From Microbacterium sp. lyk4-40-TSB-66 (GTDB lineage Bacteria > Actinomycetota > Actinomycetes > Actinomycetales > Microbacteriaceae), in NCBI RefSeq assembly GCF_030209475.1, contig NZ_JARVRW010000003.1, forward strand, positions 434,001 through 498,000: a stretch of DNA of 64,000 bases. Direction: 5' to 3'. The first letter of the stretch is position 1; every line of letters begins with the position of its first letter. The notes beneath the pieces are model-generated. The model ran no database searches. It was not told where the DNA came from and worked only from the letters and a program-made list of their open reading frames with translations. Below are positions 28,451 to 52,545 of this stretch, piece by piece. The translations under genes were made by a program, and so were the position numbers.

Positions 28451-28464
28451 TGTTCTCGGTAACA
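28451..28464 (-). promoter_or_regulatory. Arabinose-regulon operator before the 59-residue peptide gene
   Basis: TGTTCTCGGTAACA has perfect TGTT/AACA ends and the CG core of the regulon consensus TGTTNNCGNNNACA. It lies between the small gene's start and the GH43 terminator. Confidence 0.65.
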
Positions 28465-31500: not shown

Positions 31501-32887
31501 GCAGACCGTCGGTGCTGTGCCCCATGAAGATCTTCTCGTAGCCGCCCTCGGTGGCGAAGTGGGTCCACAGGTAGCCGGCCGTGTAGTCCTTGTCGAGACC
31601 CGCCGGAGCGGCCTTGACGGTGACCTCGATCTGTCGGGTGACGGAGGTTCCGGATGCCGCGGCGGTCAGCGTCACCTTCGTGTCGGTCGCACCGCGCGTG
31701 ACGACACCGGCGGCCTTGCCGCCGGCCGGGGCCGTCGAGACCACACCCGACGGCGAGGCAGACCACGTGATGGCCGTGCCGTTGACCGACCCGGTGGCGG
31801 GGAGGGTGATGTTGCCGCGTACGTCGGTGGCGTTCGGGATGCTGATCTTGTCGAGATCGGCCTTCGCGAGCTCGGCGCCACCCGGCATCGCGGCCACGGT
31901 GACGGCGAACGTGCGGGTCTCGGTGGCCGAGCCGCGTGTGAGGGTCGCCGTCAGCGTCGCGGTGGCGGGCTGCTGCCCGGCCGCCGGGCGCGTGACCTTG
32001 CCGGCCGCGCTCACCGCGGCGGTGTTGCTGGAGGCCCAGCTGATGGCGGCTCCGTTGACGCCCGTCGCGGGAAGACGCAGGTCGGCGGTCACGGCGCTGA
32101 GGTCGCCGAGCGAGAGGGCCGCGGCGTCGCGCTGCAGGCGGGTGGTGTCAGTGGGTACGAGGGCGGCGACATCGGATGCCGACAGGGCGGCGTTGTAGAC
32201 CCGGAAGTCGCGCACGCTGCCGGCGAGGCGGCGGTCGGCGTTGTAGACCGAGCGGCCGATGTAGTTCGCGGCGGTGGATCCGCCGCCGATGGCGCTCGGC
32301 TTCGTGGTGACGCCGGTGGCCTGACCGACCTGGGCGCCGTCGAGGTAGAGGCGAGCCGTGTCTGTGGCGTCGTCGAGCGTGTAGGTGAGGGTCTTCCACA
32401 CGTCGCGCTGCAGGTTGGCGTTGCTGTTCACCGTCTGCTCGGTGCTCCAGTTGCCGGTGGCGATCGACGACTTGAACGTGTTGCCGGTCGCGTACAGGTA
32501 TCCGTTGCCGACTCCGGCGGCGTCGGTGTTGCCGAGTCCGTAGATGAAGTACGGCGTGCCCTGGTCTGCGCGCACCAGGACGTCGGTGCTGATGGTGATC
32601 GAGTCGAGGCCCGCCAGCAGGTTGTCGGGGAGGTCGACGTAGTCGTCGGTGCCGTCCAAGCGCACGCCCTCGCCGCCCGTCAGGGCCGCGCCGCCGACGT
32701 AGGTGGCGTTGCGACCCTTGCCGGACGCGTCGACGGCCGTGGTGCCGCTCGCGTCGGTGAGGGGGTAGTGGGCGACGAGTCGGTCGTCGGCGGCGGCAGC
32801 GGGCTGCGCGGCGACGAGGGCGCCGGTCAGCGCCAGGGCCAGTGTCGCGACGCTCGCGAGCGCGCGGCGGGGCAGGGGGTGCTCCAT
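28547..32887 (-). CDS. Secreted protein with two GH43 catalytic domains, LamG and Ig-like modules
   Basis: This 1446-residue extracellular enzyme of the arabinanase/arabinofuranosidase type has a signal peptide at 1-33. In order follow LamG (34-250), two Ig-like domains (about 255-430), GH43 propeller A (about 440-790), a second LamG (about 810-1010), a short beta domain, GH43 propeller B (about 1050-1350) and the two-Cys C-terminal module (1364-1446). Both propellers look active. A has Asp485 in GVRDP, a middle Asp in NIIDST and Glu672 in RMEG. B has Asp1060 in YADPN, a middle Asp in AIDPAAF and Glu1232 in FREG. An arabinose-type operator lies 53 bases upstream. Exact bond specificity cannot be read. 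Confidence 0.9.
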   Translation of the reverse strand: MEHPLPRRALASVATLALALTGALVAAQPAAAADDRLVAHYPLTDASGTTAVDASGKGRNATYVGGAALTGGEGVRLDGTDDYVDLPDNLLAGLDSITISTDVLVRADQGTPYFIYGLGNTDAAGVGNGYLYATGNTFKSSIATGNWSTEQTVNSNANLQRDVWKTLTYTLDDATDTARLYLDGAQVGQATGVTTKPSAIGGGSTAANYIGRSVYNADRRLAGSVRDFRVYNAALSASDVAALVPTDTTRLQRDAAALSLGDLSAVTADLRLPATGVNGAAISWASSNTAAVSAAGKVTRPAAGQQPATATLTATLTRGSATETRTFAVTVAAMPGGAELAKADLDKISIPNATDVRGNITLPATGSVNGTAITWSASPSGVVSTAPAGGKAAGVVTRGATDTKVTLTAAASGTSVTRQIEVTVKAAPAGLDKDYTAGYLWTHFATEGGYEKIFMGHSTDGLHWEKLNDNKSILANLGGDLGVRDPHLVRSPEGDKYWIIGTDLHAEGGGAGGSGWDQLNASQNIVVWESTDLVNWSDQRIVFAGFDKAGCVWAPEAIYNEATGEYYVYWAARDQTDNNTPDWALRMYLTKTRDFTTFTKPEIWTTLNPKGDGQGGRNIIDSTIAKEGDTYYRFSTSDWDTVVDTAPSLDGPWTQKIAPGQAAAAGLRGRMEGLTVYQLPDGRWSVMGDEFNYYAHTADTLASNKYTQLSAGSGANQFSFDEKFRHGSVLRLSKAEEARLLAKYGDAPVEPTEPEQPQQGPIAEYTFENGSLADTVGDADLTASGAASVATDAEKGSALRLTGAANGFASFPTGFFDRRDTMTVSLDIKSELSSGNFFTFAFGQNQDRYSFLRVRGSEARNAITKASWQNESAVSGQISQGQWHKYDLVYEGKTMRMYIDGVKVSENLALNTSVSELGTNLAGYLGKSFYSGDPAFKGWFDNVRVYNRALSNTEILQNAGVEDQLLDVSLTQPEKLKMAPIIDSKARTAILPVVKGTDVSKLAPTFTTVPGSTVSPASGTTVDLTKPVTYTVTTPKGAKAEWKIEARVVNSPVLPGLYADPNIAVFGDTYYIYATSDGFPGWGGKEFYVWKSKNLTDWTRSDKPFLTLDGANGNVPWATGNAWAPTIIERDGKYYFYFSGHNAAVDRKTIGVAVADSPEGPFTAEPNAMILNNEAVTSGQAIDPAAFHDPVTGKWYLGWGNGSPVLAELADDMKSIKPGTYQRINGLTDFREGVFFNYRNGLYHLTYAIDDTGSENYRVGYATATSMNGPWTYRGVILEKDLSLGIKGPGHSSIINVPGTDDWYIAYHRFAIPGGNGNNRETTIDKVTFGADGLMQKVTPTLESVKPQTVPAAGPEVTAAATSRCVAGKVVLTVSVTNRDDAPVSLSMTSDHGSKTVASLAAGKTTTQSFTVRQPSLAAGAVTVTATDAGGAATEVKTTYGARTCG

Positions 32888-33260: not shown

Positions 33261-36242
33261 ATGAGATCACCGGTCACCCGCCCACCCCGAGCCGTGCGTT
33301 CGCGTCGTGTGTCGAAGGCGCTGACCGCGTCTGTCACCGGCGTGCTCGTCGCCTCGACGATGAGCATGGTCGCGCCCGCCGCGCACGCCGCCGACGTGCC
33401 GGCACCGACGGCGCACTACGACATGTCGCACTCCGGCACGTCGCTGCTCGACGTCTCGGGCAACGGTCGCAACGCCTCGCTCACCGGTTTCACCGACGCG
33501 TCGTTCGCCGACGCCGCCGGTGACTCCGTGCTGCGGTTCAAAGCCGACGGCTACGCCGCGCTTCCCAAGGGCCTGGTCACCGGAACCGACAACGACTTCA
33601 CCGTCGAGTACACGGTCGCGGCACAGTCCGCGGCGAACCACTTCGGGTGGGTCATCGGCGACGGCGTCGGGCCGTGGAACACCACGCAGCTCGGCAACCA
33701 CATCTTCCTCAGCCCGCGCTCGGCGCAGGGCGGCTACACCGACCAGGTGCTCGCGGCGATCCGCGTCAAGAGCGGCACGAGCAACGGCGAGACGCGCATG
33801 CCCGCGGGCGGCGGGCTCAACCCCGGCTTCACCACCCTCACGATGGTGGGCGCGGGCAACACCCTGACCCTCTACCGCGACGGCAGCGTCATCTCGACCC
33901 TGACGCACGCGAACTCGCTGAGCTCGATCATCCCCTCGGGCAACGTGCTCGGCTACCTGGGTCGCTCGCTCTACCAGGGCGACTCGCTGCTGCGTGCCGA
34001 CGTCACCGACGTCAAGTTCTGGGACGCGGCGCTCACCTCCGACCAGGTCGGGTCGAGCATGCCGACCGCGTCGCAGAAGTCGTCGACCACCTCGGCGCTG
34101 CTGCGCGGCGACGTCGCGGCCACCATGCTGCGCTCCAACACCTCGCTCGACAGCGTCTCGAGCAACCTCAACCTCGCCTCGTCCGTCAATGGCGTCGCAC
34201 TGACCTGGGCGTCGTCCAACCCGGCCGTCGTGTCGACCACCGGTGTCGTCTCGCGCTCGATCACGGCGAACACCCCCGTGACCCTCACGGCGACGAGCTC
34301 GCTCGGCGTCCTGACGTTCGACGTCACCGTGATCGCCCCCGACGTCGCAACCGACCTGAATGCCATCTCCCTGGCATCCCGCACGACCGAGAACCTGCCA
34401 CTGGCGACCAAGGGCGCCGTCAACGGCGCCGCGATCAGCTGGACCTCGTCGAACCCCGCGCTGGTCACCTCGACCTCGGCCGCGTACGTCGCTCCGGCCG
34501 TGGGTGCCGCCGACCCGTATCGCGGCGGCGGTCTCGTCGCACGTCCCGCCTACGGCGCGGGAGACGCGAAGGTCACGCTGACGGCGACGGCCACCCTCAA
34601 CGGTCAGTCGGCCCAGAAGACGTTCGACGTCACCGTCGCCGAGAAGGGTCGCTGGGCTCCGGATGCCGGATACGCCGCGGCGTACTTCAAGTCCGACGGC
34701 GACGAGAAGATCTACCAGGCGGCGACGTCGGGCAACGACTTCTTCTCGTTCTCGCCGGTGAACTCGGGCCAGCCCGTCATCACGTCGACGACCGACACGA
34801 AGGGTCTGCGCGACCCGTACATCCTGCGGTCCAAGGACGGCGACAAGTACTACATGGTCGCCACCGACCTGTGCATCAGCTGCGGCACGGGCTGGGGTCC
34901 GGCGCAGTCGAACGGTTCGCTGAAGATCGAGGTCTGGGAATCGACCGACCTGGTGAAGTGGGACCGCACGAACGGAGCCAACGAGGGCATCACGGTCAAC
35001 CAGCCCGAGGCGGGCATGACCTGGGCGCCCGAGGCGTACTGGGACGACGCGCTGCAGTCGTACGTCGTGCACTTCTCGTCGCGTCTGTACAACAGCGCGG
35101 CCAAGACGAACACCGATAACCTGCACGCCCGGGTGTTCTACGTGCTCACGCGCGACTTCAAGACGTTCACCTACCCGCCCACCGAGTGGCAGAACACCGG
35201 CTTCGCCCGCATCGACTCGACCGTGCAGAAGATCGGCGACTACTACTACCGCTTCACCAAGAACGAGGAGGGCGGCGCAGCCGACGGCCTCGAGGCGGGC
35301 AAGGACATCTTCCTCGAGCGGTCGAAGGTGCTGACCGCGCCGACGACGCGCTCGAACTGGAACGCCGACCCCGAGAAGACGTGGCAGCTCACCGACACCT
35401 ACATGACCCGTCTCGAGACGAACGAGGTCGGCGAGGGTCCGCAGATCGTCAAGCTCAACGAGGGCGACCCGAACAACGCCGGGGGCGACGGATACGCCTT
35501 CCTCGTCGACAACTTCGGGGCGGGCGGCTACCGCGCGTTCGTCACCACCGGTGGCGCCATCGCGAGCAGCTCGCAGAACGACCGTCTGTCGCGTCGCGCC
35601 GACTGGAACGTCCGACCGGTCGGCGGCCTGCCCGCCAGCCCGCGTCACGGTTCGTTCGTGAGCGTGAACCAGTCGGTCCTCACCGCGATGCGCGAGTGGA
35701 CGTCGGTCAAGGCGGTCGCCTCGACCACCACCCTCACGCGTGAGGGGCGGACGGCCACGGCCGTCGTCGCCGCCGCCGACCGGGGCGACGTCGCGGGCAC
35801 CGTGACCTTCACGGGCGAAGGCTGGACGCAGACGGTGAAGCTCAGCCAGCGCTCCGCCTCCGTCGAGGTGCCGGCCACGGTGCGATCGGTGACCGCGCGG
35901 TACGACGGATACACCGACGGCCGGGTCACCGCGTCGTCGTCCGACCCGCTGTCGCTGGGGCTCGACCTGTCCGCCGCCGTCGCCAACCGCTGCATCGCCG
36001 GAAAGGTGACGCAGGTGGTCACGGTGACCAACGCCGACTCCGTCGCGGCCGACGTCACGGTCGCCGGCGCCTTCGGCAGCAAGAAGATGACCGTCGCCGC
36101 GGGCAAGACCGCATCGGCGACGTTCTCGACCCGCGCGACGTCGGTCGAGGCCGGCACGATGTCGATCGACGCAGTCACCAGCGGTACCAAGAACGACGCT
36201 ACGACGTTCACCGTGCCGGCCCCCCGGGGCAGCTGCGGCTGA
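33261..36242 (+). CDS. Secreted GH43 glycosidase with LamG, Ig-like and two-Cys C-terminal module
   Basis: This 993-residue exported protein has a basic N-terminus and signal peptide (1-43, ending AAHAA). LamG (about 50-255), two Ig-like domains of the type linking GH43 enzymes (about 265-465) and one GH43 propeller (about 470-810) follow. Asp518 in GLRDPYI is the likely general base and Glu725 in VGEGPQI the acid. A further beta domain (about 815-905) and the conserved RCIAGK...SCG module (910-993) end the protein. ATG 33261 was chosen for the AGAGAAAGG site and the signal sequence. It probably releases L-arabinose from arabinan or arabinoxylan side chains; the substrate is inferred from the locus. 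Confidence 0.9.
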   Translation: MRSPVTRPPRAVRSRRVSKALTASVTGVLVASTMSMVAPAAHAADVPAPTAHYDMSHSGTSLLDVSGNGRNASLTGFTDASFADAAGDSVLRFKADGYAALPKGLVTGTDNDFTVEYTVAAQSAANHFGWVIGDGVGPWNTTQLGNHIFLSPRSAQGGYTDQVLAAIRVKSGTSNGETRMPAGGGLNPGFTTLTMVGAGNTLTLYRDGSVISTLTHANSLSSIIPSGNVLGYLGRSLYQGDSLLRADVTDVKFWDAALTSDQVGSSMPTASQKSSTTSALLRGDVAATMLRSNTSLDSVSSNLNLASSVNGVALTWASSNPAVVSTTGVVSRSITANTPVTLTATSSLGVLTFDVTVIAPDVATDLNAISLASRTTENLPLATKGAVNGAAISWTSSNPALVTSTSAAYVAPAVGAADPYRGGGLVARPAYGAGDAKVTLTATATLNGQSAQKTFDVTVAEKGRWAPDAGYAAAYFKSDGDEKIYQAATSGNDFFSFSPVNSGQPVITSTTDTKGLRDPYILRSKDGDKYYMVATDLCISCGTGWGPAQSNGSLKIEVWESTDLVKWDRTNGANEGITVNQPEAGMTWAPEAYWDDALQSYVVHFSSRLYNSAAKTNTDNLHARVFYVLTRDFKTFTYPPTEWQNTGFARIDSTVQKIGDYYYRFTKNEEGGAADGLEAGKDIFLERSKVLTAPTTRSNWNADPEKTWQLTDTYMTRLETNEVGEGPQIVKLNEGDPNNAGGDGYAFLVDNFGAGGYRAFVTTGGAIASSSQNDRLSRRADWNVRPVGGLPASPRHGSFVSVNQSVLTAMREWTSVKAVASTTTLTREGRTATAVVAAADRGDVAGTVTFTGEGWTQTVKLSQRSASVEVPATVRSVTARYDGYTDGRVTASSSDPLSLGLDLSAAVANRCIAGKVTQVVTVTNADSVAADVTVAGAFGSKKMTVAAGKTASATFSTRATSVEAGTMSIDAVTSGTKNDATTFTVPAPRGSCG

Positions 36243-36284: not shown

Positions 36285-36428
36285 GCCGGCGCGTGCGTTG
36301 TCCCGAAAGCCCCTGGGGTCGGGCGCCACCGCTCGTGAGGGCAGTGGTGCCGCGGCCCACGCGCGCTTCGCCGCGCACCCCACGATCCCGATTCCCCGTC
36401 CGCTGACGAAACTCTTGTCATCGGATGG

Positions 36429-36442
36429 TGTTCTCGCTAACA
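36429..36442 (+). promoter_or_regulatory. Arabinose-regulon operator before the WxL/DUF916 cluster
   Basis: TGTTCTCGCTAACA has perfect TGTT/AACA ends and is one of the best matches to the regulon consensus. It lies 112 bases upstream of the WxL-like gene; the leader also contains GAAGAAACGGAG as ribosome site. Confidence 0.7.
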
Positions 36443-36554
36443 TTCATGATGTCGCGGGGCGGGGATGACCCGGATCCTTCCCGCAACGACCGGAGCGTCC
36501 GGTGAGCTTGCTAGTCGTTCGACGTCGGTGTCGAGCGAAGAAACGGAGTACACA

Positions 36555-37193
36555 ATGAAGTTTTCCAAGGGTGCCGCGGCTCGTATCGCCGTGGCTGCTG
36601 CCGGTGGTCTGGTGCTCGTGGGCACGGCTGGTGCCGCGTTCGCCGCCGAGGTCGACGACTCGGACGTCAACGTCAACGTGCAGATCGCGCCCGTCGTGGG
36701 CCCGGGCAGCCTGAGCCTGACGGTCGCCGGCACGTCGGCCACCCTGACGGAGTCGGCATCCGGTGACGCCGACGTGCGTCAGTTCGACGGCGCGCTGCCC
36801 ACCGTGACCGTCACCGACACCCGCGACGTCGACGACATCCCCGCGAACCACGCCTGGTACGTGGTCGGGCAGGCCTCGGCCTTCACCAGCCCCGGCGGCG
36901 CCACCATCTCCCCCGATCACCTGGGCTGGACCCCCCGCGTCGTCGACGGCGGCGACACCGGCCTCGTGGCCGAGGGTGAGCCCGTCGGCACGTCGGAGGA
37001 CACCGGCGCCGACGCCGTCGGCCTCGTAGACCAGGAGCTGCTGTACCTCACGGTCGACTCGACCGACGTCCGCGCCGATGGCGAGTCGTCGTGGACCGCG
37101 GACGCCGCGCTGGTGTTGAAGACCGGCTCCGACGTCACGCCCGGCGCTTACTCCTCCACGCTGACGCTGTCGCTGTTCGAGGACGTGTACTGA
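36555..37193 (+). CDS. Secreted WxL-like surface protein
   Basis: This 212-residue exported protein has a clear signal peptide (1-30, AFA-A). The mature part is acidic and beta-rich. It opens with DSDVNVNVQIAPVVGPGSLSL and then has TVTVTDTRDV, NHAWYVVGQASAF and a final PGAYSSTLTLSLFEDVY. The W-x-V-x-G-Q-x-S-x-F pattern and the YSSTLTLSL end resemble the WxL domain that attaches to peptidoglycan in Firmicutes, though the strict Trp-x-Leu triplets are not present. The following DUF916 gene, the usual WxL partner, supports this reading. The name is an analogy, not a proven domain match. Confidence 0.65.
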   Translation: MKFSKGAAARIAVAAAGGLVLVGTAGAAFAAEVDDSDVNVNVQIAPVVGPGSLSLTVAGTSATLTESASGDADVRQFDGALPTVTVTDTRDVDDIPANHAWYVVGQASAFTSPGGATISPDHLGWTPRVVDGGDTGLVAEGEPVGTSEDTGADAVGLVDQELLYLTVDSTDVRADGESSWTADAALVLKTGSDVTPGAYSSTLTLSLFEDVY

Positions 37194-37221
37194 GTCGCCT
37201 CGGCGTAAGCTCGACTGACCC

Positions 37222-37254
37222 GTGGGCCGAGTCCTCGATGAGGGCTCGGCCCAC
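37222..37254 (+). terminator. Hairpin between the WxL-like and DUF916 genes
   Basis: Perfect 10-base arms (GTGGGCCGAG at 37222-37231; CTCGGCCCAC at 37245-37254) around a 13-base loop. It may partly end transcription, giving more WxL-like protein than DUF916 protein, or protect the upstream message. Confidence 0.55.
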
Positions 37255-37314
37255 CTCTGTACGCGCGACGACGACGTCGCGATAGACGAAGATCCGGGAT
37301 GGTGACGTAGCGAC

Positions 37315-38436
37315 ATGTTCGTGATCCGTACATTTCTCACGCGCATGGCCGTCGCTCTGGTGGCGGTCACCGCGGCGGTGTCCTTCGGGGCGACCGCGGC
37401 GTCCGCGGCATCCCCCGACGACATCACATGGTCCGTCACTCCGGCCGACGCGTCCGGCGCCGACAATCGCGGCGTCATCGAGCAGGAGATCGACCCCGGG
37501 GCATCGCGCGCGGACTTCCTCGCCGTCCGCAACCTCAGCCGCACGGAGGTGACGTTCGCCCTTTCCGCTGCGGACGGGTACTACACCGACAAGGGGCGGT
37601 TCAACATGCTGCCCTCCGATAAGGAGTCGGTCGACGCGGGTCTGTGGATCGACCTGCCCGACTCGGTCACGGTCGGCCCGAACGGCACCGTCGTCGTGCC
37701 CTTCACCACCACGGTGCCGGAGGGTGCCATTCCGGGTGACCACGCGGCGGGCATCGCCGCATCCGTCTCCTCCACCGGTACCGACGCCGGCGGCTCCCAG
37801 GTCGGCGTCGAGAGCCGCGTCGGTTTCCGCGTGATGACGCGCGTCACCGGCGACATCGTCCCCTCGTACTCCGTGTCGGGAGTCGAGTCGGGGTACGACC
37901 TGTCGTGGAACCCGTTCCGCCCGGGCTCCGCGAACACGTCGTTCACGGTGGAGAACACCGGCAACGCCAGCCTGCTCGTCACCGGGGTGACGACGATCGG
38001 CACCGGGTCCGCGGCCTTCCCCGCCGAGGGTGCACCACGACAGGAGCTCCTGCCGGGGGAGTCGCGTTCGTTCACCGCCGAGGTCGCCGACGTGTGGCCC
38101 ACGTTCTTCGTGCCGGGATCCATCGACCTGGCGCCGACGGCGACCGATCTGGGCGGCGGTGCCGTCGAGGTCGCACCCCAGTCGGCGGATGCGTCTCTCT
38201 GGGCGCTCCCCGTGCCGCAACTGCTCGTCCTGCTCGGGATCCTGCTCATCATCGCGGCCCTGTTCTGGCGCCGTCGCCGCTTCTCCGCCGCCCTCGACCG
38301 CGCGCGCGAAGAAGGGCGTCTCGCGGCGAACGGCCCCGCCGATGTCGCACTCGCCGACGTCTCGCCCGCGGCGACCGGCGCGGGTCCCGTCCGCGCTGAG
38401 GCCGCGGATGCGCCCCCGGCCGAGGGGCGCCGGTGA
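37315..38436 (+). CDS. DUF916 (WxL-interacting protein) family membrane-anchored surface protein
   Basis: This 373-residue protein has a signal peptide (1-31), two beta-sandwich regions and a C-terminal membrane helix (about 300-320) followed by RRRRF and a 50-residue Ala-rich cytoplasmic tail. The first region matches the DUF916 pattern: IDPGASRADFLAVRNLS, GYYTDKGRFNMLP and VPFTTTVPEGAIPGDHAAGI. The second carries SYSVSGVESGYDLSW. In Firmicutes such proteins bind WxL proteins and peptidoglycan in Csc surface complexes (established knowledge). Here it follows a WxL-like gene and its stop overlaps a small LAxTG gene, the same gene set. Actinobacterial members are little studied. Confidence 0.75.
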   Translation: MFVIRTFLTRMAVALVAVTAAVSFGATAASAASPDDITWSVTPADASGADNRGVIEQEIDPGASRADFLAVRNLSRTEVTFALSAADGYYTDKGRFNMLPSDKESVDAGLWIDLPDSVTVGPNGTVVVPFTTTVPEGAIPGDHAAGIAASVSSTGTDAGGSQVGVESRVGFRVMTRVTGDIVPSYSVSGVESGYDLSWNPFRPGSANTSFTVENTGNASLLVTGVTTIGTGSAAFPAEGAPRQELLPGESRSFTAEVADVWPTFFVPGSIDLAPTATDLGGGAVEVAPQSADASLWALPVPQLLVLLGILLIIAALFWRRRRFSAALDRAREEGRLAANGPADVALADVSPAATGAGPVRAEAADAPPAEGRR

Positions 38437-38675
38437 CCCTCGCCGCGACGGCGCCGCAACGAGACGACATCGTCTCGATCCACGTCGACATCGTGCCTCT
38501 GCCGACGCACCTGCCCACAGCCCCCGCGGGTGCCGTGCCGTCGCCGTCCGGTGTGCCCGACCACGGATGGCTCGCGGCGACCGGCTTCGAGCCGGCCTGG
38601 CTGATGGCCGCCGGGGCCGTCGTCGTCGTGGCCGTCGGCGTGGCTCTGCTGCATCGTCGCCGCCGCCGCGCGTGA
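38433..38675 (+). CDS. Small LAxTG-type membrane protein (possible sortase E substrate)
   Basis: This 80-residue protein has a Pro/Ala-rich middle, then WLAATGFEP at about 46-54, a hydrophobic segment (AWLMAAGAVVVVAVGVALL) and the basic end HRRRRRA. This is the layout of a sortase signal, and LAxTG is the form used by class E sortases in actinobacteria (family knowledge). GTG 38433 overlaps the DUF916 stop by four bases. Oddly, no N-terminal signal peptide is visible, so export would have to rely on the C-terminal helix or on a different start. No sortase gene lies in the window. It corresponds to the small LPxTG protein of Firmicutes Csc clusters. Confidence 0.65.
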   Translation: MTLAATAPQRDDIVSIHVDIVPLPTHLPTAPAGAVPSPSGVPDHGWLAATGFEPAWLMAAGAVVVVAVGVALLHRRRRRA

Positions 38676-38870: not shown

Positions 38871-39902
38871 ATGACCTCAATGCCCCAGTCCTCGAGTCGC
38901 GGGTGGCAGCGGCCCAGCATCTACGACGTCGCGCGTCGCGCCGGTGTGTCGCACATGACGGTGTCACGGGTGCTGAACGGTCATCCGAACATCCGCGAGA
39001 CGACGCGTGCGCGCGTCCTGCAGGCGATCGAGGAGATGAACTACACGCCGAGCTCGATCGCGCGGGCCCTCGCCACACGGAGAGCCCGTCGGATCGGCGT
39101 GCTCATCGACGGCCCCGTGCAGAACGGTCCGAACAGCACCCTCCGCGCCCTCGAGAAGGCCGCGCGAGAGGTCGGCTACGCCGTGAGCGCGTTCTCGATC
39201 GGCGATGACGACGCGTCGCAGATGGACTCCGGCGTGATGGAGCTCGTCACTCAGGGGGTCGACGCGCTGTGCGTCATCGCCCCGCGCGAGTCGTCGCTCG
39301 ATCTGCTGCGGCAGCAGACGACGGGACTCCCCACGATCGTCATCAAGGCCGAGGCGGATGCCGCGTGGCACACCGTCGGCGTCGATCAGCGTGAGGGCGC
39401 GCGACTGGCTGTGCGTCATCTCATCGGTCTCGGACACCGCCGCATCGCCCACCTGGCGGGTCCGATGGACTGGTTCGACGCCCGCGAGCGCATGGAGGGC
39501 TGGCGCGAGTGCCTCGCCGAGGCGGGTCTGCCGGAGGGACCGATCATCATCGGCGACTGGACGTCGGATTTCGGCTTCGAGTTCGGGAAGTCCTTCGACC
39601 TCGCCGACACCTCCGCCGTGTTCGCGGCGAACGACCAGATCGCGCTGGGCGTCATCCACGGGCTGCACGGTCGCGGCATCCGGGTCCCGGAAGACGTGAA
39701 CGTGGTCGGGTTCGACGATCTGTCCGACGCGCGACACTTCCTCCCCCCGCTCACCACGGTCCGCCAGAACTTCGCCGAACTCGGCGAGTTGGCGCTGCAG
39801 CAGCTCATCGCCGCCATCGAGGGCGACACCGATCCGAGCCACGACACGATCCAGCCGAAGCTCATCGTGCGCGAGTCGACGACGGCCGTCGTACCCGGCT
39901 GA
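38871..39902 (+). CDS. LacI-family regulator of the arabinose locus (AraR-like)
   Basis: This 343-residue regulator has a helix-turn-helix at about residues 16-62 (SIYDVARRAGVSHMTVSRVL) and a periplasmic-binding-protein-like sensor with GFDDLSDARHFLPPLTTVRQ near the end. It stands directly upstream of the arabinose importer and araDBA. The 14-bp palindrome TGTTNNCGNNNACA, of a size typical for LacI proteins, occurs at eight places in this locus but not clearly before this gene. The effector is probably L-arabinose or an arabino-oligosaccharide. ATG 38871 was taken, with 38880 as an alternative; neither has a strong ribosome site. Confidence 0.85.
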   Translation: MTSMPQSSSRGWQRPSIYDVARRAGVSHMTVSRVLNGHPNIRETTRARVLQAIEEMNYTPSSIARALATRRARRIGVLIDGPVQNGPNSTLRALEKAAREVGYAVSAFSIGDDDASQMDSGVMELVTQGVDALCVIAPRESSLDLLRQQTTGLPTIVIKAEADAAWHTVGVDQREGARLAVRHLIGLGHRRIAHLAGPMDWFDARERMEGWRECLAEAGLPEGPIIIGDWTSDFGFEFGKSFDLADTSAVFAANDQIALGVIHGLHGRGIRVPEDVNVVGFDDLSDARHFLPPLTTVRQNFAELGELALQQLIAAIEGDTDPSHDTIQPKLIVRESTTAVVPG

Positions 39903-40100: not shown

Positions 40101-41108
40101 ATGTCGATTTCGAAGCGCATGCGCGGCGTCGTCGGATTCATCGGTGTGGGCGTCGTCGCCCTGGGCCTGGCCGGCTGTGCCGGTGGCGCCGACGCGGGCA
40201 GCGACGGCGGTGCCGCCGATGACGGCGTCACCACGGTCGGCTTCGTCGCCGTCGGCCCCGAGGGCGGATGGCGTAACGCCAACGAGCAGGCGATCAAGGA
40301 CGCGTTCACCGCGGATGCCGGCTTCGACCTGAAGTACGCCCCGGCGGCCAGCCCCAGCGACCAGAAGTCGCAGCTCGACGCCTTCGCGACCTTCGTCAAC
40401 GACGAGGTCGACGTCATCCTGCTCACGGCCACCGAGGCGTCGGGCTGGGAGTCCTCGCTCGAGCTCGCCAAGGAAGCGGAGATCCCGGTCGTGCTCCTCG
40501 ACCGCGGTGTCGACGCGTCCGACGACCTCTACGTCACGCGCATCGCCCCCGACAACAAGCAGGTCGCGGAGTCGGTCGGCTCGTGGGCCGTCTCGGCCTT
40601 CCCGTCGGGTGCGAAGTACTTCGTCCTCGAGGGCGTCCCCGGCCTGTCCGTCGTGAACGAGCGCAACGAGGGCTTCGACGCCGAGGTCGCCAGCGCTTCG
40701 GGCTTCACCAAGGTCGGCGCTCAGACCGCCAACTGGAAGACCGACGAGGGCAAGTCCGTCGTCGAGACCGTCCTGAAGGCCAACAATAACGACATCCAGT
40801 TCATCTTCGCCCAGAACGATGAAATGGGCATCGGCGCCGCTCAGGCCGTCTCCGCCGCGGGCCTGACCCCCGGCACCGACGTCAAGATCGCCACCATCGA
40901 CGGCACCAAGGGTGCGCTCGAGGCCCTGGCCGCCGGCCAGCTCAGCTTCGTCGCCCAGTACAACCCCTTCTTCGGTGACACCGCCGTCGACGCCGTGAAG
41001 TCGGCCATCGCCGGCGACACCGTCGAGAAGACGATCATCGTCGACAGCGCGACCTTCGACTCGCCCGAAGCCGCCGAGACGGCGCTGTCCGAGGGCCTGG
41101 GCTTCTAA
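40101..41108 (+). CDS. ABC transporter sugar-binding lipoprotein, YtfQ-like
   Basis: This 335-residue CUT2-type receptor has a lipobox LAGC near residue 25 and a ribose-binding-protein fold. Characteristic segments are VGFVAVGPEGGWRNANEQA, LLTATEASGWES, VVLLDRGVDASDDL and the late IATIDGTKGALEALAAGQL, close to E. coli YtfQ, which binds furanose sugars. ATG 40101 follows AAGGAGGAGA. Being first in an operon with araDBA, the ligand is probably L-arabinose, perhaps the furanose form. That is an inference from neighbours and the YtfQ resemblance. A stable hairpin follows the gene and may keep this receptor more abundant than the rest. Confidence 0.9.
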   Translation: MSISKRMRGVVGFIGVGVVALGLAGCAGGADAGSDGGAADDGVTTVGFVAVGPEGGWRNANEQAIKDAFTADAGFDLKYAPAASPSDQKSQLDAFATFVNDEVDVILLTATEASGWESSLELAKEAEIPVVLLDRGVDASDDLYVTRIAPDNKQVAESVGSWAVSAFPSGAKYFVLEGVPGLSVVNERNEGFDAEVASASGFTKVGAQTANWKTDEGKSVVETVLKANNNDIQFIFAQNDEMGIGAAQAVSAAGLTPGTDVKIATIDGTKGALEALAAGQLSFVAQYNPFFGDTAVDAVKSAIAGDTVEKTIIVDSATFDSPEAAETALSEGLGF

Positions 41109-41141
41109 GCCCCGTTCCACCCGCTCGACAGCACCACTTCA

Positions 41142-41177
41142 GGAGTGGGGGCGGCCTGCCCGGGCTGCCCCCACTCC
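41142..41177 (+). terminator. Intercistronic hairpin within the importer operon
   Basis: GGAGTGGGGGC (41142-41152) pairs with GCCCCCACTCC (41167-41177), with further inner pairs. It lies between the receptor and ATPase genes, without a T-run. It probably limits read-through or protects the receptor message. Confidence 0.6.
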
Positions 41178-41220
41178 GCATTCCCCACCCGCTCCGTACC
41201 AGCGAGGAAGTTCGTCAGCG

Positions 41221-42792
41221 ATGACAGAATCCCTACCGATCGTCGAAGTCCGCGGCGCATCGATCACGTTCCCCGGCGTCAAAGCCCTCGACGAAGTGAA
41301 CTTCCGACTCCTGCCGGGAGAAGTCCACACCCTCATGGGCGAGAACGGCGCGGGCAAGTCCACCCTCATCAAGGCGCTCACCGGCGTCTACCAGATCGAC
41401 TCCGGATCGATCCTCATCTTCGGCGAGGAGCGACGCCTGACCGGCACCGCTTCGGCGCAGGCGGCCGGTATCTCGACCGTGTACCAAGAGGTCAACCTCT
41501 GCACGAACCTCACCATCGGCGAGAACGTCATGCTGGGCCACGAAGTGCGCGGTCCGTTCGGCATCAACTGGCGCGCCACGCACGCCCGCGCCAAAGAGGC
41601 GTTGACCGGCATGGGGCTCGGCCACCTCGACCCCCGTGCCCCGCTGTCGTCCATCTCGATCGCGCTGCAGCAACTCGTCGCCATCAGCCGCGCCATGGTC
41701 ACCGACTCGAAGGTGCTCATCCTCGACGAACCGACCTCGAGCCTCGACGCCGCCGAGGTCGAGGTGCTCTTCACCGTCATGCGTCGCCTGCGCGACCAGG
41801 GTGTGGCCATCCTCTTCGTCTCGCACTTCCTCGATCAGGTGTACGCGATCAGCGATCGCATCACCGTGCTGCGCAACGGCGGCTTCGTGGGCGAGTACCT
41901 GACCCGCGACCTCGACCGCACCCAGCTCATCTCGAAGATGATCGGCAAGGACATCGAGGCGCTGCGCGCCCTGGGCTCCAACCGTCAGGTCGACGCCCGC
42001 GATCGCAACGCGACCCCCGTCTACGCCGCCGAGGGCATCGCCCGCGCGGGAGCGCTCGCCCCCACCGACATCGAGATCCACAAGGGCGAGGTGGTCGGGT
42101 TCGCCGGTCTCCTCGGCTCGGGTCGCACCGAGCTCGCCCGCCTGATCGCCGGCGCCGACCGCGCCGACGCGGGCACCGTGCGCCTCAAGGGCAAGAAGGT
42201 CAACGTCACCTCCCCGGTCTCGGGCCTGGGCAACCACATCGCCTACTCGACCGAGAACCGTCGCGACGACGGCATCATCGGCGACCTGAGCATCCGCGAG
42301 AACATCATGCTCGCGCTGCAGGCCAAGCGCGGATGGCTGCGCCGCATCCCCGCCAAAGAGGTGGACCAGCTGGTCTCGACCTACATGGAGCGCTTCAGCG
42401 TCCGGCCGAACGACCCCGAGCGCCCGATCCGCCTGCTCTCCGGCGGCAACCAGCAGAAGGTCCTGCTCGGCCGCTGGCTGGCGACCGACCCCGAGCTGCT
42501 GCTGCTCGACGAGCCGACCCGCGGCATCGACGTCGGCGCCAAGGCCGACATCCAGGAGACCGTCGCGGAGCTCGCCGAGGCGGGGATGAGCGTCGTCTTC
42601 ATCTCGTCCGAGCTCGAAGAGGTCGTGCGCCTGTCCGAGCGCATCGTGATCATGAAGGACCACGAGAAGGTCGGCGAGATCGTCAACGGCCCCGACGTCA
42701 CCGCCGAGCGCGTCGTGTCGATCATCGCGGCCGAGACCGAAGAAGAGGCGGAAGCCCAGACCGAGGCCCTCGCCGAAGGAGAGACCCGCTGA
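41221..42792 (+). CDS. Sugar ABC transporter ATP-binding protein, two ATPase domains (YtfR/RbsA/AraG type)
   Basis: This 523-residue energising subunit carries two tandem ABC domains. The first has Walker A GENGAGKST (about 40-48), a less conserved signature (LSSISIALQQ) and Walker B VLILDEPTSSLD. The second has the altered P-loop GLLGSGRTELAR, the full signature LSGGNQQKVLL and LLLLDEPTRGIDVG. This asymmetry is normal for CUT2 ATPases. An acidic tail (EEEAEAQTEALAEGE) ends it. The TGA shares a base with the ATG of the first permease. It would power import of the ligand bound by the YtfQ-like receptor. Confidence 0.94.
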   Translation: MTESLPIVEVRGASITFPGVKALDEVNFRLLPGEVHTLMGENGAGKSTLIKALTGVYQIDSGSILIFGEERRLTGTASAQAAGISTVYQEVNLCTNLTIGENVMLGHEVRGPFGINWRATHARAKEALTGMGLGHLDPRAPLSSISIALQQLVAISRAMVTDSKVLILDEPTSSLDAAEVEVLFTVMRRLRDQGVAILFVSHFLDQVYAISDRITVLRNGGFVGEYLTRDLDRTQLISKMIGKDIEALRALGSNRQVDARDRNATPVYAAEGIARAGALAPTDIEIHKGEVVGFAGLLGSGRTELARLIAGADRADAGTVRLKGKKVNVTSPVSGLGNHIAYSTENRRDDGIIGDLSIRENIMLALQAKRGWLRRIPAKEVDQLVSTYMERFSVRPNDPERPIRLLSGGNQQKVLLGRWLATDPELLLLDEPTRGIDVGAKADIQETVAELAEAGMSVVFISSELEEVVRLSERIVIMKDHEKVGEIVNGPDVTAERVVSIIAAETEEEAEAQTEALAEGETR

Positions 42793-43829
42793 TGTCCGTT
42801 TTCAAGTCGCTCCTGCGCACCCCCTGGTTCTGGGGCATCATCGGCATCGTCCTGCTGCTGTCGCTGAACGTCATCAAGGACCCGACCTACCTCTCCGTCG
42901 GCATCAACCCGACCACCGGGCAGCTCTCGGGCAACCTCCTCGACATCCTGCGGGTGTCGGCGCCGATCATCATGATCGCCCTCGGCATGACCTTCGTCAT
43001 CGCCACCAAGGGCATCGACCTCTCGGTCGGATCGATCATGGCCGTCGGCGGTGCCGCCGCGATGGAGCTCCTGCGTTCGCTCAACGAGGCGAGCTCCTTC
43101 GGCGCCATGTTCATGGCGATCGGCCTCGCGCTCCTGCTCGGCGCCGTCCTCGGCCTGGTCAACGGCCTGCTCGTCTCGGTCGTCGGCCTCCAGCCCTTCA
43201 TCAGCACCCTGGTGATGATGCTCGCCGCCCGCGGTATCGCCCGCGTGATCACGGGCGGTCAGAACACCAACTCGCAGAACCAGCCGTTCCAGCAGATCTC
43301 CAACGGTCAGGTGCTCGGTCTCCCCATCAGCTTCGTCACCGCGATCGTCATCGTCGTGGTCGTCACGGTGATCATGCGCCGCACCGCCCTGGGCCTCATG
43401 ATCGAGTCGATCGGCGTGAACCCCGACGCGAGCCGCCTCGCCGGCATCCGCCCCCGTCCGATCCTCATCACCGTCTACGTGCTCTCGGGCATCCTCGCCG
43501 CCGGCGGTGGTCTGTTCACGGTGTCGGAGGTCATGACGGTCGACGTCTCGGGCACCGGCTACCAGATGGAGCTCGACGCGATCCTCGCCGTCGTCATCGG
43601 CGGCACCTCGCTCGCCGGAGGCAAGTTCTCCATCCTCGGGTCGACCATCGGGGCGCTGCTGATCGCGACCCTGAACAAGACCGTTCTCTTCCTCGGGGTC
43701 TCCGCCGCGGCGACCCCGGCCTTCAAGGCCATCGTCATCGTGCTGCTCGTCCTGCTGCAGTCCGAGCGGGTGAGGACCTTCGTCCTCCAGGCCGGACGCC
43801 GCCGTACCCGTAAGGAGGTCGTCGCATGA
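42792..43829 (+). CDS. Sugar ABC transporter permease (YtfT-like)
   Basis: This 345-residue CUT2 membrane subunit has about nine hydrophobic helices. Family motifs are IALGMTFVIATKGIDLSVGS, LQPFISTLVMMLAARG and AVVIGGTSLAGGKFS. The start overlaps the ATPase stop by one base and the end overlaps the second permease by four. A pair of different permeases with one double ATPase is the layout of the E. coli YtfQRT-YjfF importer, supporting a furanose-type pentose or hexose ligand. Confidence 0.93.
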   Translation: MSVFKSLLRTPWFWGIIGIVLLLSLNVIKDPTYLSVGINPTTGQLSGNLLDILRVSAPIIMIALGMTFVIATKGIDLSVGSIMAVGGAAAMELLRSLNEASSFGAMFMAIGLALLLGAVLGLVNGLLVSVVGLQPFISTLVMMLAARGIARVITGGQNTNSQNQPFQQISNGQVLGLPISFVTAIVIVVVVTVIMRRTALGLMIESIGVNPDASRLAGIRPRPILITVYVLSGILAAGGGLFTVSEVMTVDVSGTGYQMELDAILAVVIGGTSLAGGKFSILGSTIGALLIATLNKTVLFLGVSAAATPAFKAIVIVLLVLLQSERVRTFVLQAGRRRTRKEVVA

Positions 43830-44878
43830 GCACGACCGTCTCACCCCCGTCGCCCTCGCACGGCACCGAGGTCCCGGTGCGGGGCCTGGCGATCTCCCGC
43901 ATGTGGGGTCGCAGCCAGTCCGCCGTCCCGACGCTGGCCGCCGTCGTGCTCCTCGTCGCGATGCTCGTGTACGCCGAGTTCGCGTACGGCCGCGTGTTCC
44001 ACGCCGGCACCATGTCGAGCCTGCTGGTCAGCTTCGCGCCCACGATCATCCTCGCCGTCGGCATGACCATCGTCATCCTGTCGGGAGGCATCGACCTCTC
44101 GGTCGGCGCCGTCGTCGCCTTCACCTCGGTGTCGGGCGTGATGCTGATGAACAACGGCGTCAACGGCTGGGTCGCCGTCATCCTGATGATCGTGTTCGGA
44201 GCGCTGTTCGGCCTGGTCTCGGGCGTGCTCATCCAGTACTTCAACGTGCAACCCTTCATCGCCACGCTGGCGATGATGTTCCTCGCCCGAGGTCTGGCAT
44301 CCATCCTCTCGACCGTGCCGGTGCAGGCGCCCGACAACTCCCCGATCCTGGTGCTCGCCACCGACTGGAAGCTGTACGACGGCCCGAAGACGAACGACCT
44401 CGTGCTCACGCCCGGCTTCTTCATCGCCGTGCTCGTCGTCGCCGCGGCCTTCATGCTGCTCCACCGCACCCGCACCGGCCGCACGGTGTACGGCATCGGC
44501 GGGGCCGAGAACTCGGCGCAGCTGATGGGTCTCCCCGTCGCCCGCACCCGCGTGCTCATCTACGTGCTCAGCGGTGCCCTCGCCGGCCTCGCGGCCGTCG
44601 TGTACACGGCAGAGGTGGGCGGCAAGGCGCAGAACGTCACCGGTATCGGATGGGAACTGGATGCCATCGCCGCCGTCGTCATCGGCGGAACGCTCCTGAC
44701 CGGTGGCGCCGGGTACGTCCTCGGGTCGGTCGTCGGCTCGCTCGTGCTCGCAGCCCTGGCCATGATCATCACCAAGGACGGCGGCATCCGCCCCGAGTAC
44801 TTGACCATCATCACCGGCGGTATCCTGCTCGCGTTCGTCCTGCTGCAGCGCGTGCTGACCGCGCGGCGCCGAAAATGA
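43826..44878 (+). CDS. Sugar ABC transporter permease (YjfF-like)
   Basis: This 350-residue second CUT2 permease has a 30-residue cytoplasmic N-terminus and then the family segments ILAVGMTIVILSGGIDLSVG, VQPFIATLAMMFLARG and AVVIGGTLLTGGAGYVLG. It resembles YjfF more than YtfT and would form a heterodimer with the preceding permease. Start by ATGA overlap. Its 3' end meets the araD gene region. Confidence 0.93.
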   Translation: MSTTVSPPSPSHGTEVPVRGLAISRMWGRSQSAVPTLAAVVLLVAMLVYAEFAYGRVFHAGTMSSLLVSFAPTIILAVGMTIVILSGGIDLSVGAVVAFTSVSGVMLMNNGVNGWVAVILMIVFGALFGLVSGVLIQYFNVQPFIATLAMMFLARGLASILSTVPVQAPDNSPILVLATDWKLYDGPKTNDLVLTPGFFIAVLVVAAAFMLLHRTRTGRTVYGIGGAENSAQLMGLPVARTRVLIYVLSGALAGLAAVVYTAEVGGKAQNVTGIGWELDAIAAVVIGGTLLTGGAGYVLGSVVGSLVLAALAMIITKDGGIRPEYLTIITGGILLAFVLLQRVLTARRRK

Positions 44879-44916
44879 GCACCGTCGTCGACCCGCACCC
44901 CCTCAAGGAGAACCCC

Positions 44917-47240: not shown

Positions 47241-47281
47241 CCTCGGCCGTCGCCACTCCCACCACAAGAAGGAAATCCCGC

Positions 47282-52531: not shown

Positions 52532-52545
52532 TGTTACCGGAAACA
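52532..52545 (-). promoter_or_regulatory. Arabinose-regulon operator
   Basis: TGTTACCGGAAACA has perfect TGTT/AACA ends and a CCGG core. It lies 126 bases upstream of the GH43 start at 52406. Confidence 0.65.

Follow-up and report, generated by a model that had tools for sequence, protein, structure and literature searches.

The locus raises the question of what a gene cluster resembling the Csc surface clusters of Firmicutes does in an actinobacterium, where it stands among genes for secreted GH43-type enzymes and L-arabinose use. Genes were called across the window (the whole stretch of 64,000 nucleotides analyzed) with a home-made caller, and gene edges are approximate. The cluster consists of three adjacent genes, here P1, P2 and P3. 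We put at about even the chance that they form an actinobacterial Csc-like surface system working with secreted arabinan-degrading enzymes, in which P2 would hold P1, P3 would tether P1 and the enzymes would be displayed.

The cluster and its setting

The cluster, its upstream region and the sugar genes that follow were assigned as listed below.

36415..36443, + strand: promoter-like site TTGTCA-17-TAACAT (consensus scan with 9/12 matches; shuffling the scanned region gave a mean of 0.2)
36429..36442, no strand assigned: LacI-type operator TGTTCTCGCTAACA, fitting TGTTNNCGNNAACA with 0 mismatches
36555..37193, + strand: P1, secreted WxL-like protein of 212 aa, CscB-like (signal peptide by eye; WxL relation by profile-profile comparison)
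37315..38436, + strand: P2, DUF916/WxLIP-like membrane protein of 373 aa, CscA-like (PF06030 in family members; hhalign to Firmicutes WxLIP)
38433..38675, + strand: P3, LAATG protein of 80 aa, CscD-like (GTG start; TIGR01167 match)
38880..39902 (38871 as alternative start), + strand: LacI-family regulator, candidate reader of the operator (PF00356 and PF13377)
40101..44878, + strand: sugar importer closest to the YtfQRT-YjfF type, made up of a binding protein, an ATPase and two permeases (NCBIfam; Peripla_BP_4 for the binding protein)
44875..48793, + strand: L-ribulose-5-phosphate 4-epimerase, a middle gene and L-arabinose isomerase (NCBIfam above cut-off; epimerase 369 bits, isomerase 782 bits)

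An earlier note on this DNA had described three adjacent genes behind an operator copy. All three are present with open frames, P3 overlapping P2 by 4 bases, and the operator at 36429-36442 has no mismatch and overlaps the promoter-like site in its second hexamer. Sites with at most one mismatch numbered eight in the window compared to 0.70 expected, a count reached in 0 of 100 shuffles. A LacI-type repressor would read the operator over the promoter, such that platform, enzymes and importer would be induced together. The note had also placed the cluster between secreted GH43 genes and an arabinose importer, and the GH43 enzymes and L-arabinose genes do surround it, but the importer is nearest to YtfR/YtfT/YjfF and not to AraFGH. 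The best NCBIfam models for its ATPase and permeases were the galactofuranose models YtfR, YtfT and YjfF, all below their cut-offs, with AraG the second-best model for the ATPase. The gene between epimerase and isomerase, presumably a ribulokinase, had no NCBIfam match at 1e-60.

Comparison of gene order in relatives, which the note had suggested, showed that many keep the P1-P2 cluster among GH43 enzymes and L-arabinose genes. Loci were drawn as the best 80 of 202 with P1, a set biased to P1s close to that of the window; the same records were met twice as L032/L087 and L033/L157. Among these best 80, an exact operator lay within 450 bp ahead of P1 in 21 of the 42 loci with P1 and P2 and in none of the 38 with P1 alone, and at 60% identity neither a LacI nor an ara homologue was present in 54 of the 80. 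Because P1 genes also stand beside enzymes with a shared C-terminal module (C-mod, described below) in loci without arabinose genes, the note's phrase "for arabinan" fits the present locus and describes the locus rather than the family.

Relation of P1 and P2 to WxL and WxLIP proteins

In Firmicutes Csc/WxL clusters, as here, a WxL gene precedes a DUF916 gene, a small LPxTG-type surface protein is present, and the surface proteins have a proposed role with plant polysaccharides (PMC1534035, PMC9772566 and PMC10599100, each available in part). Profile alignments of P1 and P2 back the kinship with such WxL/WxLIP/LPxTG clusters that had been proposed. The cluster falls outside the published definition of a WxL cluster, which asks for at least two WxL proteins (PMC10599100, in part). 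The present locus differs in having a single WxL-like protein, without literal W-x-L, and an LAxTG signal, and in place of a large WxL protein it has enzymes with a C-terminal Ig-like module. It also has a LacI-type operator, whereas CRE sites are predicted for the L. plantarum Csc clusters in the part of that source available. The window held no CscC-type large protein with a C-terminal WxL2 domain and no second P1-like match, the other three of the genome being on other contigs; at other places in the same genome (L048 and L058) there are large proteins whose end is P1-like. A tip-adhesin role for the large P1-like proteins had been expected to go with loss of the N-terminal strand; that part was rejected, as a variant of the strand is kept there, a point against the preferred reading. 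Parts of the three proteins used below are as follows.

36663..36695, + strand: residues 37-47 of P1 (DVNVNVQIAPV), a nearly invariant strand at the N-terminus of the mature protein, proposed as donor strand (49-sequence conservation; pLDDT)
36855..36863, + strand: first W-x-L place of P1, W-Y-V at residues 101-103 (aligned with WxL; W101 and V103 unchanged across 49 sequences)
37167..37175, + strand: second W-x-L place of P1, L-S-L at residues 205-207 in the C-terminal strand (alignments)
38200..38268, + strand: probable membrane helix of P2 (hydrophobic stretch ahead of RRRRR, by eye)
38469..38501, + strand: P3 strand copying the P1 N-terminal strand, residues 13-23 (IVSIHVDIVPL; score 12.1 vs. 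a 99.9% shuffle limit of 10.7)
38571..38585, + strand: LAATG sorting motif of P3, residues 47-51 (sequence; class E sortase in the genome)

The relation of P2 to WxLIP proteins (DUF916-DUF3324, PF06030/PF11797) is solid at the level of sequence profiles. All 11 aligned members of the P2 family matched PF06030 at E ≤ 1 (best 1.3e-7), in agreement with the earlier assignment to DUF916, and hhalign against seven Firmicutes WxLIP gave a probability of 94.6 (E 7e-8) over 287 columns, covering both domains and the helix. Differences from WxLIP are that the P2 of the window alone scored 21.2 bits against PF06030, below the Pfam cut-off of 27.3, and that PF11797 (DUF3324) was absent from the 25 families listed for aligned P2 members. 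Comparison of P2 with PDB sequences gave nothing useful.

Neither Pfam nor NCBIfam gave a match to P1 at E ≤ 1, and none of the 49 aligned members matched Pfam WxL (PF13731). In 58 related genomes PF13731 had 18 weak matches, of which 11 fell in P1-like proteins or, for G008, in the protein encoded immediately ahead of P2; the latter was the only match above cut-off in the 58 genomes, and its neighbours are in frame. Profiles that include the large relatives aligned with Firmicutes WxL at 94.8% (26 domains; E 5.3e-8, 140 columns) and 91.2% (115 domains; E 9.9e-7, 137 columns), while the narrow P1 profile reached 51% over just 25 columns, which counts against the preferred reading. P1 is thus WxL-related as judged by distant profile homology only, and the earlier description as WxL-like stood in that sense; the literal W-x-L motifs are lacking. 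Against PDB sequences, the narrow profile found just two antibody domains (E 0.4-0.5) and the broad one eight entries at E 0.31 or worse, with no WxL protein among them. One PDB entry is named as a WxL domain surface protein, 9i25, which was found with the Firmicutes WxL profile (E 1.3e-4) and not with a single WxL sequence; its absence from the best 50 matches listed in either P1 fold search says little. Literature searches found no paper on 9i25 or on WxL with "solution structure".

Conservation and modeling both single out the N-terminal strand of P1. V42 was invariant and V38, V40 and I44 were conserved at ≥90% in 49 sequences, and the single-chain model, confident elsewhere, leaves the strand unplaced (pLDDT 58 for residues 31-40, 67 for 41-50 and 93-98 for blocks from 51 on). 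The best PDB match of the model was the CS17 donor-strand pilus subunit (E 8.1e-4). Agreement with pilins was middling, with a VIA Z of at most 8.0 and of 5.8-6.4 for the CfaB/CS17 rows (rmsd 4.7-5.9), and glycoside hydrolase domains scored like pilins, a point against the preferred reading; the likeness of the modeled fold may reflect only a common sandwich. P1 would be a WxL-related beta-sandwich, probably one strand short, that P2, which is membrane-bound and probably has two Ig-like domains, would hold as a fimbrial chaperone holds a pilin. Donor-strand pilins and TasA-TapA share with P1 the Ig-like sandwich, the conserved free N-terminal strand and a dedicated partner that would close the gap (PMC9674648 and PMC10151520, available in part). 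The present system differs from donor-strand pilins in that there is no usher or outer membrane, P2 is membrane-bound, the strand donor would be sortase-anchored and P1 polymerization is only proposed.

P1-like domains were found in 37 of 149 genomes and P2 in 39, and all 37 have P2 (Fisher 5e-33). The two genes adjoin on one strand in 28 of 36 regions and lie on opposite strands in L043; in the other seven (L040, L055, L059, L060, L061, L063 and L064) they are not neighbours or were not both called, and these eight regions count against the preferred reading. That no P1-like domain was found without P2 in the 149 genomes also suits an account which we consider possible but doubtful, in which P2 is the hub: the P1 strand and its P3 copy would be alternative ligands of the DUF916 groove, such that P1 and P3 are collected at the membrane before the sortase acts. 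The position of P3 directly after P2, with P2 and the P3 portion within one open frame, either a fusion or a frame with an internal start, in L035 and L039, is consistent with this, as is the description of DUF916 as less stable and likely needing a stabilizing contact (PMC10599100, in part). However, the AlphaFold prediction in the available part of the same source has a strand of the Firmicutes WxLIP filling the gap in WxL, and thus the relative of P2 giving the strand rather than receiving it, and the best fold matches of P1 are strand acceptors. Both points count against P2 as the hub.

Enzymes with a common C-terminal module

Seven proteins of the window end in C-mod, an unnamed Ig-like module common to the enzymes of the locus and placed at their extreme C-terminus.

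9795..13622, + strand: secreted LamG/Big_4/CBM35 protein, C-mod 13353-13619 (domain and C-mod matches)
28547..32887, - strand: GH43-type enzyme of 1446 aa, C-mod 28550-28816 (PF04616, 2e-65)
33309..36242, + strand: GH43-like protein, 977 aa from the 33309 start, C-mod 35973-36239, directly upstream of P1 (NF052546)
49479..52406, - strand: LamG/aBig/Big_4 protein, C-mod 49482-49739 (domain and C-mod matches)
52734..56126, - strand: GH43 enzyme, C-mod 52737-53009 (domain and C-mod matches)
56162..59389, - strand: GH43 enzyme, C-mod 56165-56422 (domain and C-mod matches)
59755..62463, + strand: GH43 enzyme, C-mod 62197-62460 (PF04616 34.8 bits, cut-off 32.2)

The protein upstream of P1 scored 128 bits against the alpha-arabinofuranosidase model NF052546 (cut-off 500) and was below cut-off for PF04616. 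We found 153 C-mod carriers (147 distinct) in 116 loci, and in 153 of 153 the module ends at most six residues from the C-terminus. Two cysteines are invariant in 47 aligned members, and the copy in the 9795..13622 protein is the only one of the seven in the window without them. The C-mod model is a complete 7-strand domain (pLDDT 97.5) whose PDB matches are mixed Ig/FnIII-like domains, among them residues 938-1043, near the C-terminus, of a Trueperella lacto-N-biosidase (9fyn; Z 10.2, rmsd 2.4 over 86 residues, 26% identity). The possibility that C-mod is an incomplete domain taking the strand of P1 was rejected, as the model is complete with no obvious strand acceptor. Profile comparison of P1 with C-mod found no relation, which counts against the preferred reading.

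Presence of standalone P1 and of C-mod was strongly associated across genomes, with both in 13, P1 only in one (G110), C-mod only in eight and neither in 127 (Fisher 1.6e-12); the genomes with just one of the two count against the preferred reading. Among 25 P1 hits above 130 bits and 38 C-mod hits on contigs with a P1 hit, P1 followed C-mod on the same strand with a gap of at most 399 bp in 17 of 25 cases; a check by eye showed that no nearer C-mod had been left out. Within the best 80 of 202 loci, a C-mod enzyme lay at most two genes from standalone P1 in 70 (38 of 42 loci with P2), and the 10 in which none did count against the preferred reading. GH43-type enzymes ending in C-mod would dock on the P1 platform or be sorted with its help. 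C-mod would then serve as a handle for enzyme display, in a system unlike cohesin-dockerin pairs, which in Actinobacteria would give a widespread means of keeping large secreted plant-wall enzymes on the cell.

P1 could instead be a polysaccharide-binding surface protein only, linking cell to plant polysaccharide, with the C-mod association arising from both being kept in polysaccharide loci. WxL proteins that bind cellulose or xylan are known from Lactobacillus brevis (PMC9026416, available in part), and the operator in front of the cluster is of the kind that also precedes the enzymes and importer. We nevertheless hold this account to be rather doubtful: where P1 lacks both P2 and the operator it is still at most two genes from a C-mod enzyme in 32 of 38 loci (best 80 of 202), which fits an enzyme partner better, and C-mod is as strictly C-terminal as docking or sorting signals are. 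The evidence points to P1 as a partner of enzymes rather than a mere binder. It is unlikely, in our judgment, that C-mod is itself a wall-retention module whose export or folding P1 aids, with no standing P1-C-mod complex. The invariably C-terminal placement, the invariant cysteines, the similar domain near the C-terminus of the Trueperella enzyme and the eight genomes having C-mod without standalone P1 would agree with such a module, but those eight hold only 1-3 copies each, compared to 1-19 in the 13 genomes with both.

The strand copy in P3

P3 combines LAATG with a hydrophobic tail and terminal arginines and scored 21.0 bits against the LPXTG model TIGR01167 (cut-off 15.9), which upholds the sorting-type end noted earlier. 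The same genome encodes a class E sortase (241 bits, cut-off 160), and an LAXTG motif, hydrophobic tail and basic end alongside such a sortase in an actinobacterium are the features of class E substrates (PMC5148588, available in part). P3 differs from these substrates in being very short and, like its contrast with CscD, which has a signal peptide (PMC1534035, in part), in showing no evident signal peptide by eye; this leaves export unexplained and counts against the preferred reading. P3 would be a minimal anchor, made of a copy of the P1 N-terminal strand, a spacer and the LAxTG signal, that class E sortase fixes to the wall. Its strand would complete P1, such that P1 stands on the wall alone or in a short strand-exchanged chain.

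The strand copy scored above 99.9% of shuffles in 17 of 20 P3 homologues (one record counted twice), the three misses being L105 (score 9.0) and two apparently fused forms, in which the strand falls beyond the scored slice or at its border. The copy also follows the type of P1, as 20 of 21 type-1 P3 (L039 fits the other type better) and five of five type-2 P3 prefer their own type. These totals combine a first set of 14 type-1 and four type-2 P3, chosen and trimmed by eye, with a later set (L033, L050, L081, L083, L086, L087, L105, L111 and L121) that all prefer their own type; L087, which repeats L032, was counted once and the P3 of L108 was left out. L063 has a type-2 P3 and no P1-like gene called. 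By pattern search, P3 was found for 19 of 83 P2 homologues, which counts against the preferred reading; the wall anchor would seem not to be universal, or to be often missed by the pattern. Chance or shared composition, on the premise that V-x-V-x-I runs abound in acidic proteins secreted by actinobacteria, is a very unlikely source of the resemblance, given these shuffle scores, the agreement with P1 type and a like result with another motif in Enterococcus. Such runs do turn up in other proteins, where 0.09% of 6645 random windows of 60 aa scored as high as the median P3, with a maximum of 17.8.

The Csc authors proposed in 2006 that small LPxTG peptides anchor other surface proteins "through as yet unknown interactions" (PMC1534035, in part). 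A strand copied from the held subunit, in Actinobacteria and Enterococcus with different motifs and varying with subunit type, suggests a way in which Csc-like complexes may be attached to the wall and makes the CscD anchoring question testable by one binding assay. A more general reading, which we advance tentatively and at somewhat worse than even chances, is that Csc/WxL clusters are Gram-positive donor-strand display systems. WxL proteins would be pilin-like subunits, WxLIP/DUF916 proteins membrane-tethered two-domain chaperones and CscD/P3 sortase-anchored donor strands copying the N-terminal strand of the subunit, with Actinobacteria displaying polysaccharide hydrolases via a strictly C-terminal module.

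Firmicutes loci L161-L166, L169 and L178 have no annotated CscD and were left out of the comparison, and a tblastn search with a single CscD from Enterococcus recovered the query's own record and one relative. The CscD of L173 showed no resemblance to the WxL N-terminus (p = 0.45 and 0.24), which counts against the preferred reading. Enterococcus CscD peptides resembled the WxL N-terminus of their own cluster in five of six clusters (p < 0.05), within one genus, with three of the six being close relatives and with slices that include signal-peptide ends, which inflate similarity; for the mature parts alone, in four clusters, p was 0.0005, 0.001, 0.02 and 0.45.

The cluster, its operator and its neighbours

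In the source genome (3.57 Mb, 18 contigs), P1, P2 and P3 form three adjacent genes preceded by an operator, as the earlier note had claimed; the genes are co-directional and the operator is an exact copy of LacI type.

Features of the cluster, in window positions
36415-36443, promoter-like site, overlapping the operator
36429-36442, operator, exact copy
36555-37193, same direction as P2 and P3, P1, WxL-like secreted protein (212 aa)
37315-38436, same direction as P1 and P3, P2, DUF916/WxLIP-like membrane protein (373 aa)
38433-38675, same direction as P1 and P2, P3, LAATG protein (80 aa), overlapping P2 by 4 bases

Operator sites with at most one mismatch numbered 8 in the window against 0.70 expected, and the position of the operator over the promoter-like site suggests a simple-repression layout. 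Exact copies also occur at 52532-52545 and at 28451-28464, the latter behind, not before, the GH43 gene at 28547-32887.

Large secreted proteins with GH43, LamG, aBig and Big_4 domains are encoded upstream of the cluster on both strands, while a LacI regulator gene, an importer, and L-ribulose-5-phosphate 4-epimerase and L-arabinose isomerase (both above cut-offs) are found downstream. The proposed location between GH43 genes and an arabinose importer stands for the GH43 neighbours and the L-arabinose genes, but the importer ATPase and permeases are closest to the galactofuranose models YtfR, YtfT and YjfF, with scores below the cut-offs. Arabinofuranose is the expected release product of GH43 enzymes, such that a furanose-type importer would suit. 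In the source genome, one sortase (L079:295-1923; 166.2 bits against a class F cut-off of 166) shares its open frame with a BcsZ-like endoglucanase part (118.8 bits, cut-off 299).

Homology and pairing of P1 and P2

The DUF916 relation of P2 was confirmed by PF06030 in 11 of 11 aligned members and by profile-profile comparison with seven Firmicutes WxLIP proteins (probability 94.6). For P1, the Pfam WxL model matched none of 49 aligned members and a first comparison with the WxL profile gave 51% over 25 columns, but broader profiles reached 91.2% (with large relatives, 115 domains; E 9.9e-7, 137 columns) and 94.8% (a second selection of 26 P1-like domains; E 5.3e-8, 140 columns). VTVTDTR..W in P1 aligned with VQVTDxRG..W in WxL, with the last strands in register. 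The Firmicutes WxL profile ranked P1-like proteins as its top four among 1606 called proteins (E 0.0005 to 0.1). The Pfam WxL model gave 18 weak matches across 58 genomes, 11 of them in P1-like proteins or in the protein directly before P2. Judged by these profiles, P1 is WxL-related and not a WxL member, so the earlier description holds as kinship only.

The nearest P1 among the loci listed was from Microbacterium proteolyticum (89% identity), followed by other Microbacterium, and P2 homologues gave 39 matches in 22 of 58 related genomes. We predicted genes in 36 regions (12.7-20 kb) with a caller of our own and found P1-like and P2 genes side by side on one strand in 28. In ten loci (L031-L040) the P1-like domain stood alone, at 198-218 aa, and otherwise it formed the C-terminal part of 330-844 aa proteins; in L031, L032, L033 and L036 short P1 was followed by P2, a LacI gene and the importer, and araA, araB and araD homologues lay near the cluster in L035.

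A scan of named genomes, an uneven sample, confirmed 202 P1 relatives, of which the best 80 were kept. These came from Microbacterium, Rathayibacter, Agreia, Agromyces, Frigoribacterium, Arthrobacter, Paenarthrobacter, Promicromonospora, Cellulomonas, Actinotalea, Georgenia, Tessaracoccus, Herbidospora, Parafrankia, Actinoplanes, Paractinoplanes, unnamed Microbacteriaceae and a Bifidobacteriaceae MAG. P2 followed within two genes downstream in 42 of these 80 loci; among the 42, importer or ara homologues were present in 20, a LacI homologue in 17 (both at ≥60% identity) and P3, by pattern search, in 14. An exact operator copy preceded P1 by no more than 450 bp in half of the loci with P2 (21 of 42) and in none of the 38 lacking it. 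Plasmids of Clavibacter phaseoli and Cellulosimicrobium protaetiae also carry the pair next to GH43 genes, annotated as 'hypothetical protein' (P1) and 'DUF916' (P2). On the C. phaseoli plasmid NZ_CP040796.1 (L167, tomato seed), P1, P2 and GH43 enzymes with the C-terminal module described below adjoin a sugar importer; another C. phaseoli plasmid also has a P2 match.

Among 149 genomes of the order, the P1-like domain was present in 37 and P2 in 39, with all 37 among the 39 (Fisher 5e-33, a p value that overstates independence because the genomes are related); the pairing is obligate across this set. Overall, we regard the family relations and a co-regulated surface role as highly probable.

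A C-terminal module of the neighbouring enzymes

Seven large window proteins share a C-terminal module of ~85 aa (C-mod; ..RCVAGKV..N..G.K..AGK..F..R..AG..Y.A..C), which no Pfam family above cut-off covers, nor any NCBIfam model in the two carriers searched. Structure prediction gives a complete Ig-like domain for it (pLDDT 97.5), and C11, N24 and C91 are invariant among 47 aligned members. The C-mod profile matched 153 proteins (147 distinct) in 116 loci, always within 6 residues of the protein end. Ten of the 19 copies in the genome lie in 62 kb (G000:C11:447353-508984, window 13353 onward and past its end); the gene cut at 62517-63998 probably has a C-mod at its end too, beyond the window.

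A C-mod enzyme lay within two genes of standalone P1 in 70 of the best 80 of 202 loci (38/42 with P2, 32/38 without). In the 149 genomes, standalone P1, counted at >130 bits, was present in 14 and C-mod in 21, with both in 13 and neither in 127. For 17 of 25 P1 matches, the strand of P1 carried a C-mod end within the 399 bp before it, compared to a chance expectation of ~0.1% per P1 at the C-mod density of the source genome. A second standalone P1 of that genome (L174:9490-10113, contig 15) has no adjacent P2 and is divergent from a 1085-aa C-mod enzyme.

Strand copies and possible strand exchange

Across 49 sequences, V42 in the N-terminal strand of P1 never varies, and V38, V40 and I44 are each kept in at least 90%. 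AlphaFold placed residues 31-50 at pLDDT 58-67 and the blocks from 51 on at 93-98 (whole-chain mean 86.2). The best solved-structure match of the model was a CS17 pilus subunit (E 8.1e-4, the sole match <0.001); CfaB, PapA, FimG bound to a donor peptide, and Csu ranked lower, interspersed with glycoside hydrolase domains and other sandwich folds. In a second fold comparison, the CfaB and CS17 rows covered P1 36/37-210/211, strand included (Z 5.8-6.4, rmsd 4.7-5.9). These pilin fold scores are middling and by themselves prove little; one WxL protein has a solved structure.

Among 83 P2 homologues, with one record encountered twice, a pattern search detected a small protein with a sorting signal behind, or fused to, 19; in most loci this search detected no P3. 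The exposed part of P3 (VSIHVDIVPL in the window; AVYVDVDITPLP and GVSVDVEITPLP elsewhere) has the counterpart DVNVNVQIAPV in P1, and 17 of 20 P3 exceeded 99.9% of shuffles under a scoring matrix from 41 P1 strands. In large P1-like proteins the strand takes a shorter form (GQDIQVDVPT), which recurs as SMIIQVEVPE in small LPxTG proteins close to such P2 genes. P3 preferred the strand of its own type in 20 of 21 cases of the short-P1 type (type 1) and 5 of 5 of the large-protein type (type 2). By eye, a signal peptide is lacking in P3 of the window and of L031, L032, L081-L083, L085 and L086, and seems present in L035, L036, L039, L105 and L106.

Fimbrial chaperones give a strand in parallel that is later displaced by the N-terminal strand of a neighbour. 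Related chemistry is described for TapA and TasA of Bacillus (PMC9674648, PMC10151520). Among the papers searched, 'WxL' and 'donor strand' occur together in one review on surface colonisation, and 'WxLIP' in two papers; the WxLIP paper (PMC10599100), whose AlphaFold prediction has a WxLIP strand fill a gap in WxL, does not use the word 'chaperone' in its main text. Together with Hassan et al. and the strand copy in P3, the fimbrial and TapA/TasA precedents suggest a simplest picture of strand exchange, in which P1 would be held by P2, the strand of P2 would be replaced by that of P3 or of another P1, and P3 would be fixed to the wall by sortase E. How C-mod enzymes would join is the weakest step, though their genetic link is strong. 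We regard the combined picture, from holding by P2 through strand exchange and wall fixing to enzyme joining, as evenly poised, and the general donor-strand claim as tentative and somewhat improbable.

In plasmid-borne Enterococcus clusters, the WxL N-terminus is repeated in that of CscD, the small LPxTG protein (AYDSNGVTSF vs. SYTSNGAVDF or EYNSNGQITF in WxL). The resemblance had p < 0.05 in 5 of 6 clusters with fixed slices that included signal-peptide ends, and in 3 of 4 with mature parts alone; this Firmicutes test covers Enterococcus alone, and three of the six clusters are closely related. An Enterococcus faecium plasmid WxL/DUF916 locus from fermented soybean also contains an annotated lytic polysaccharide monooxygenase gene (L173:3250-4617).
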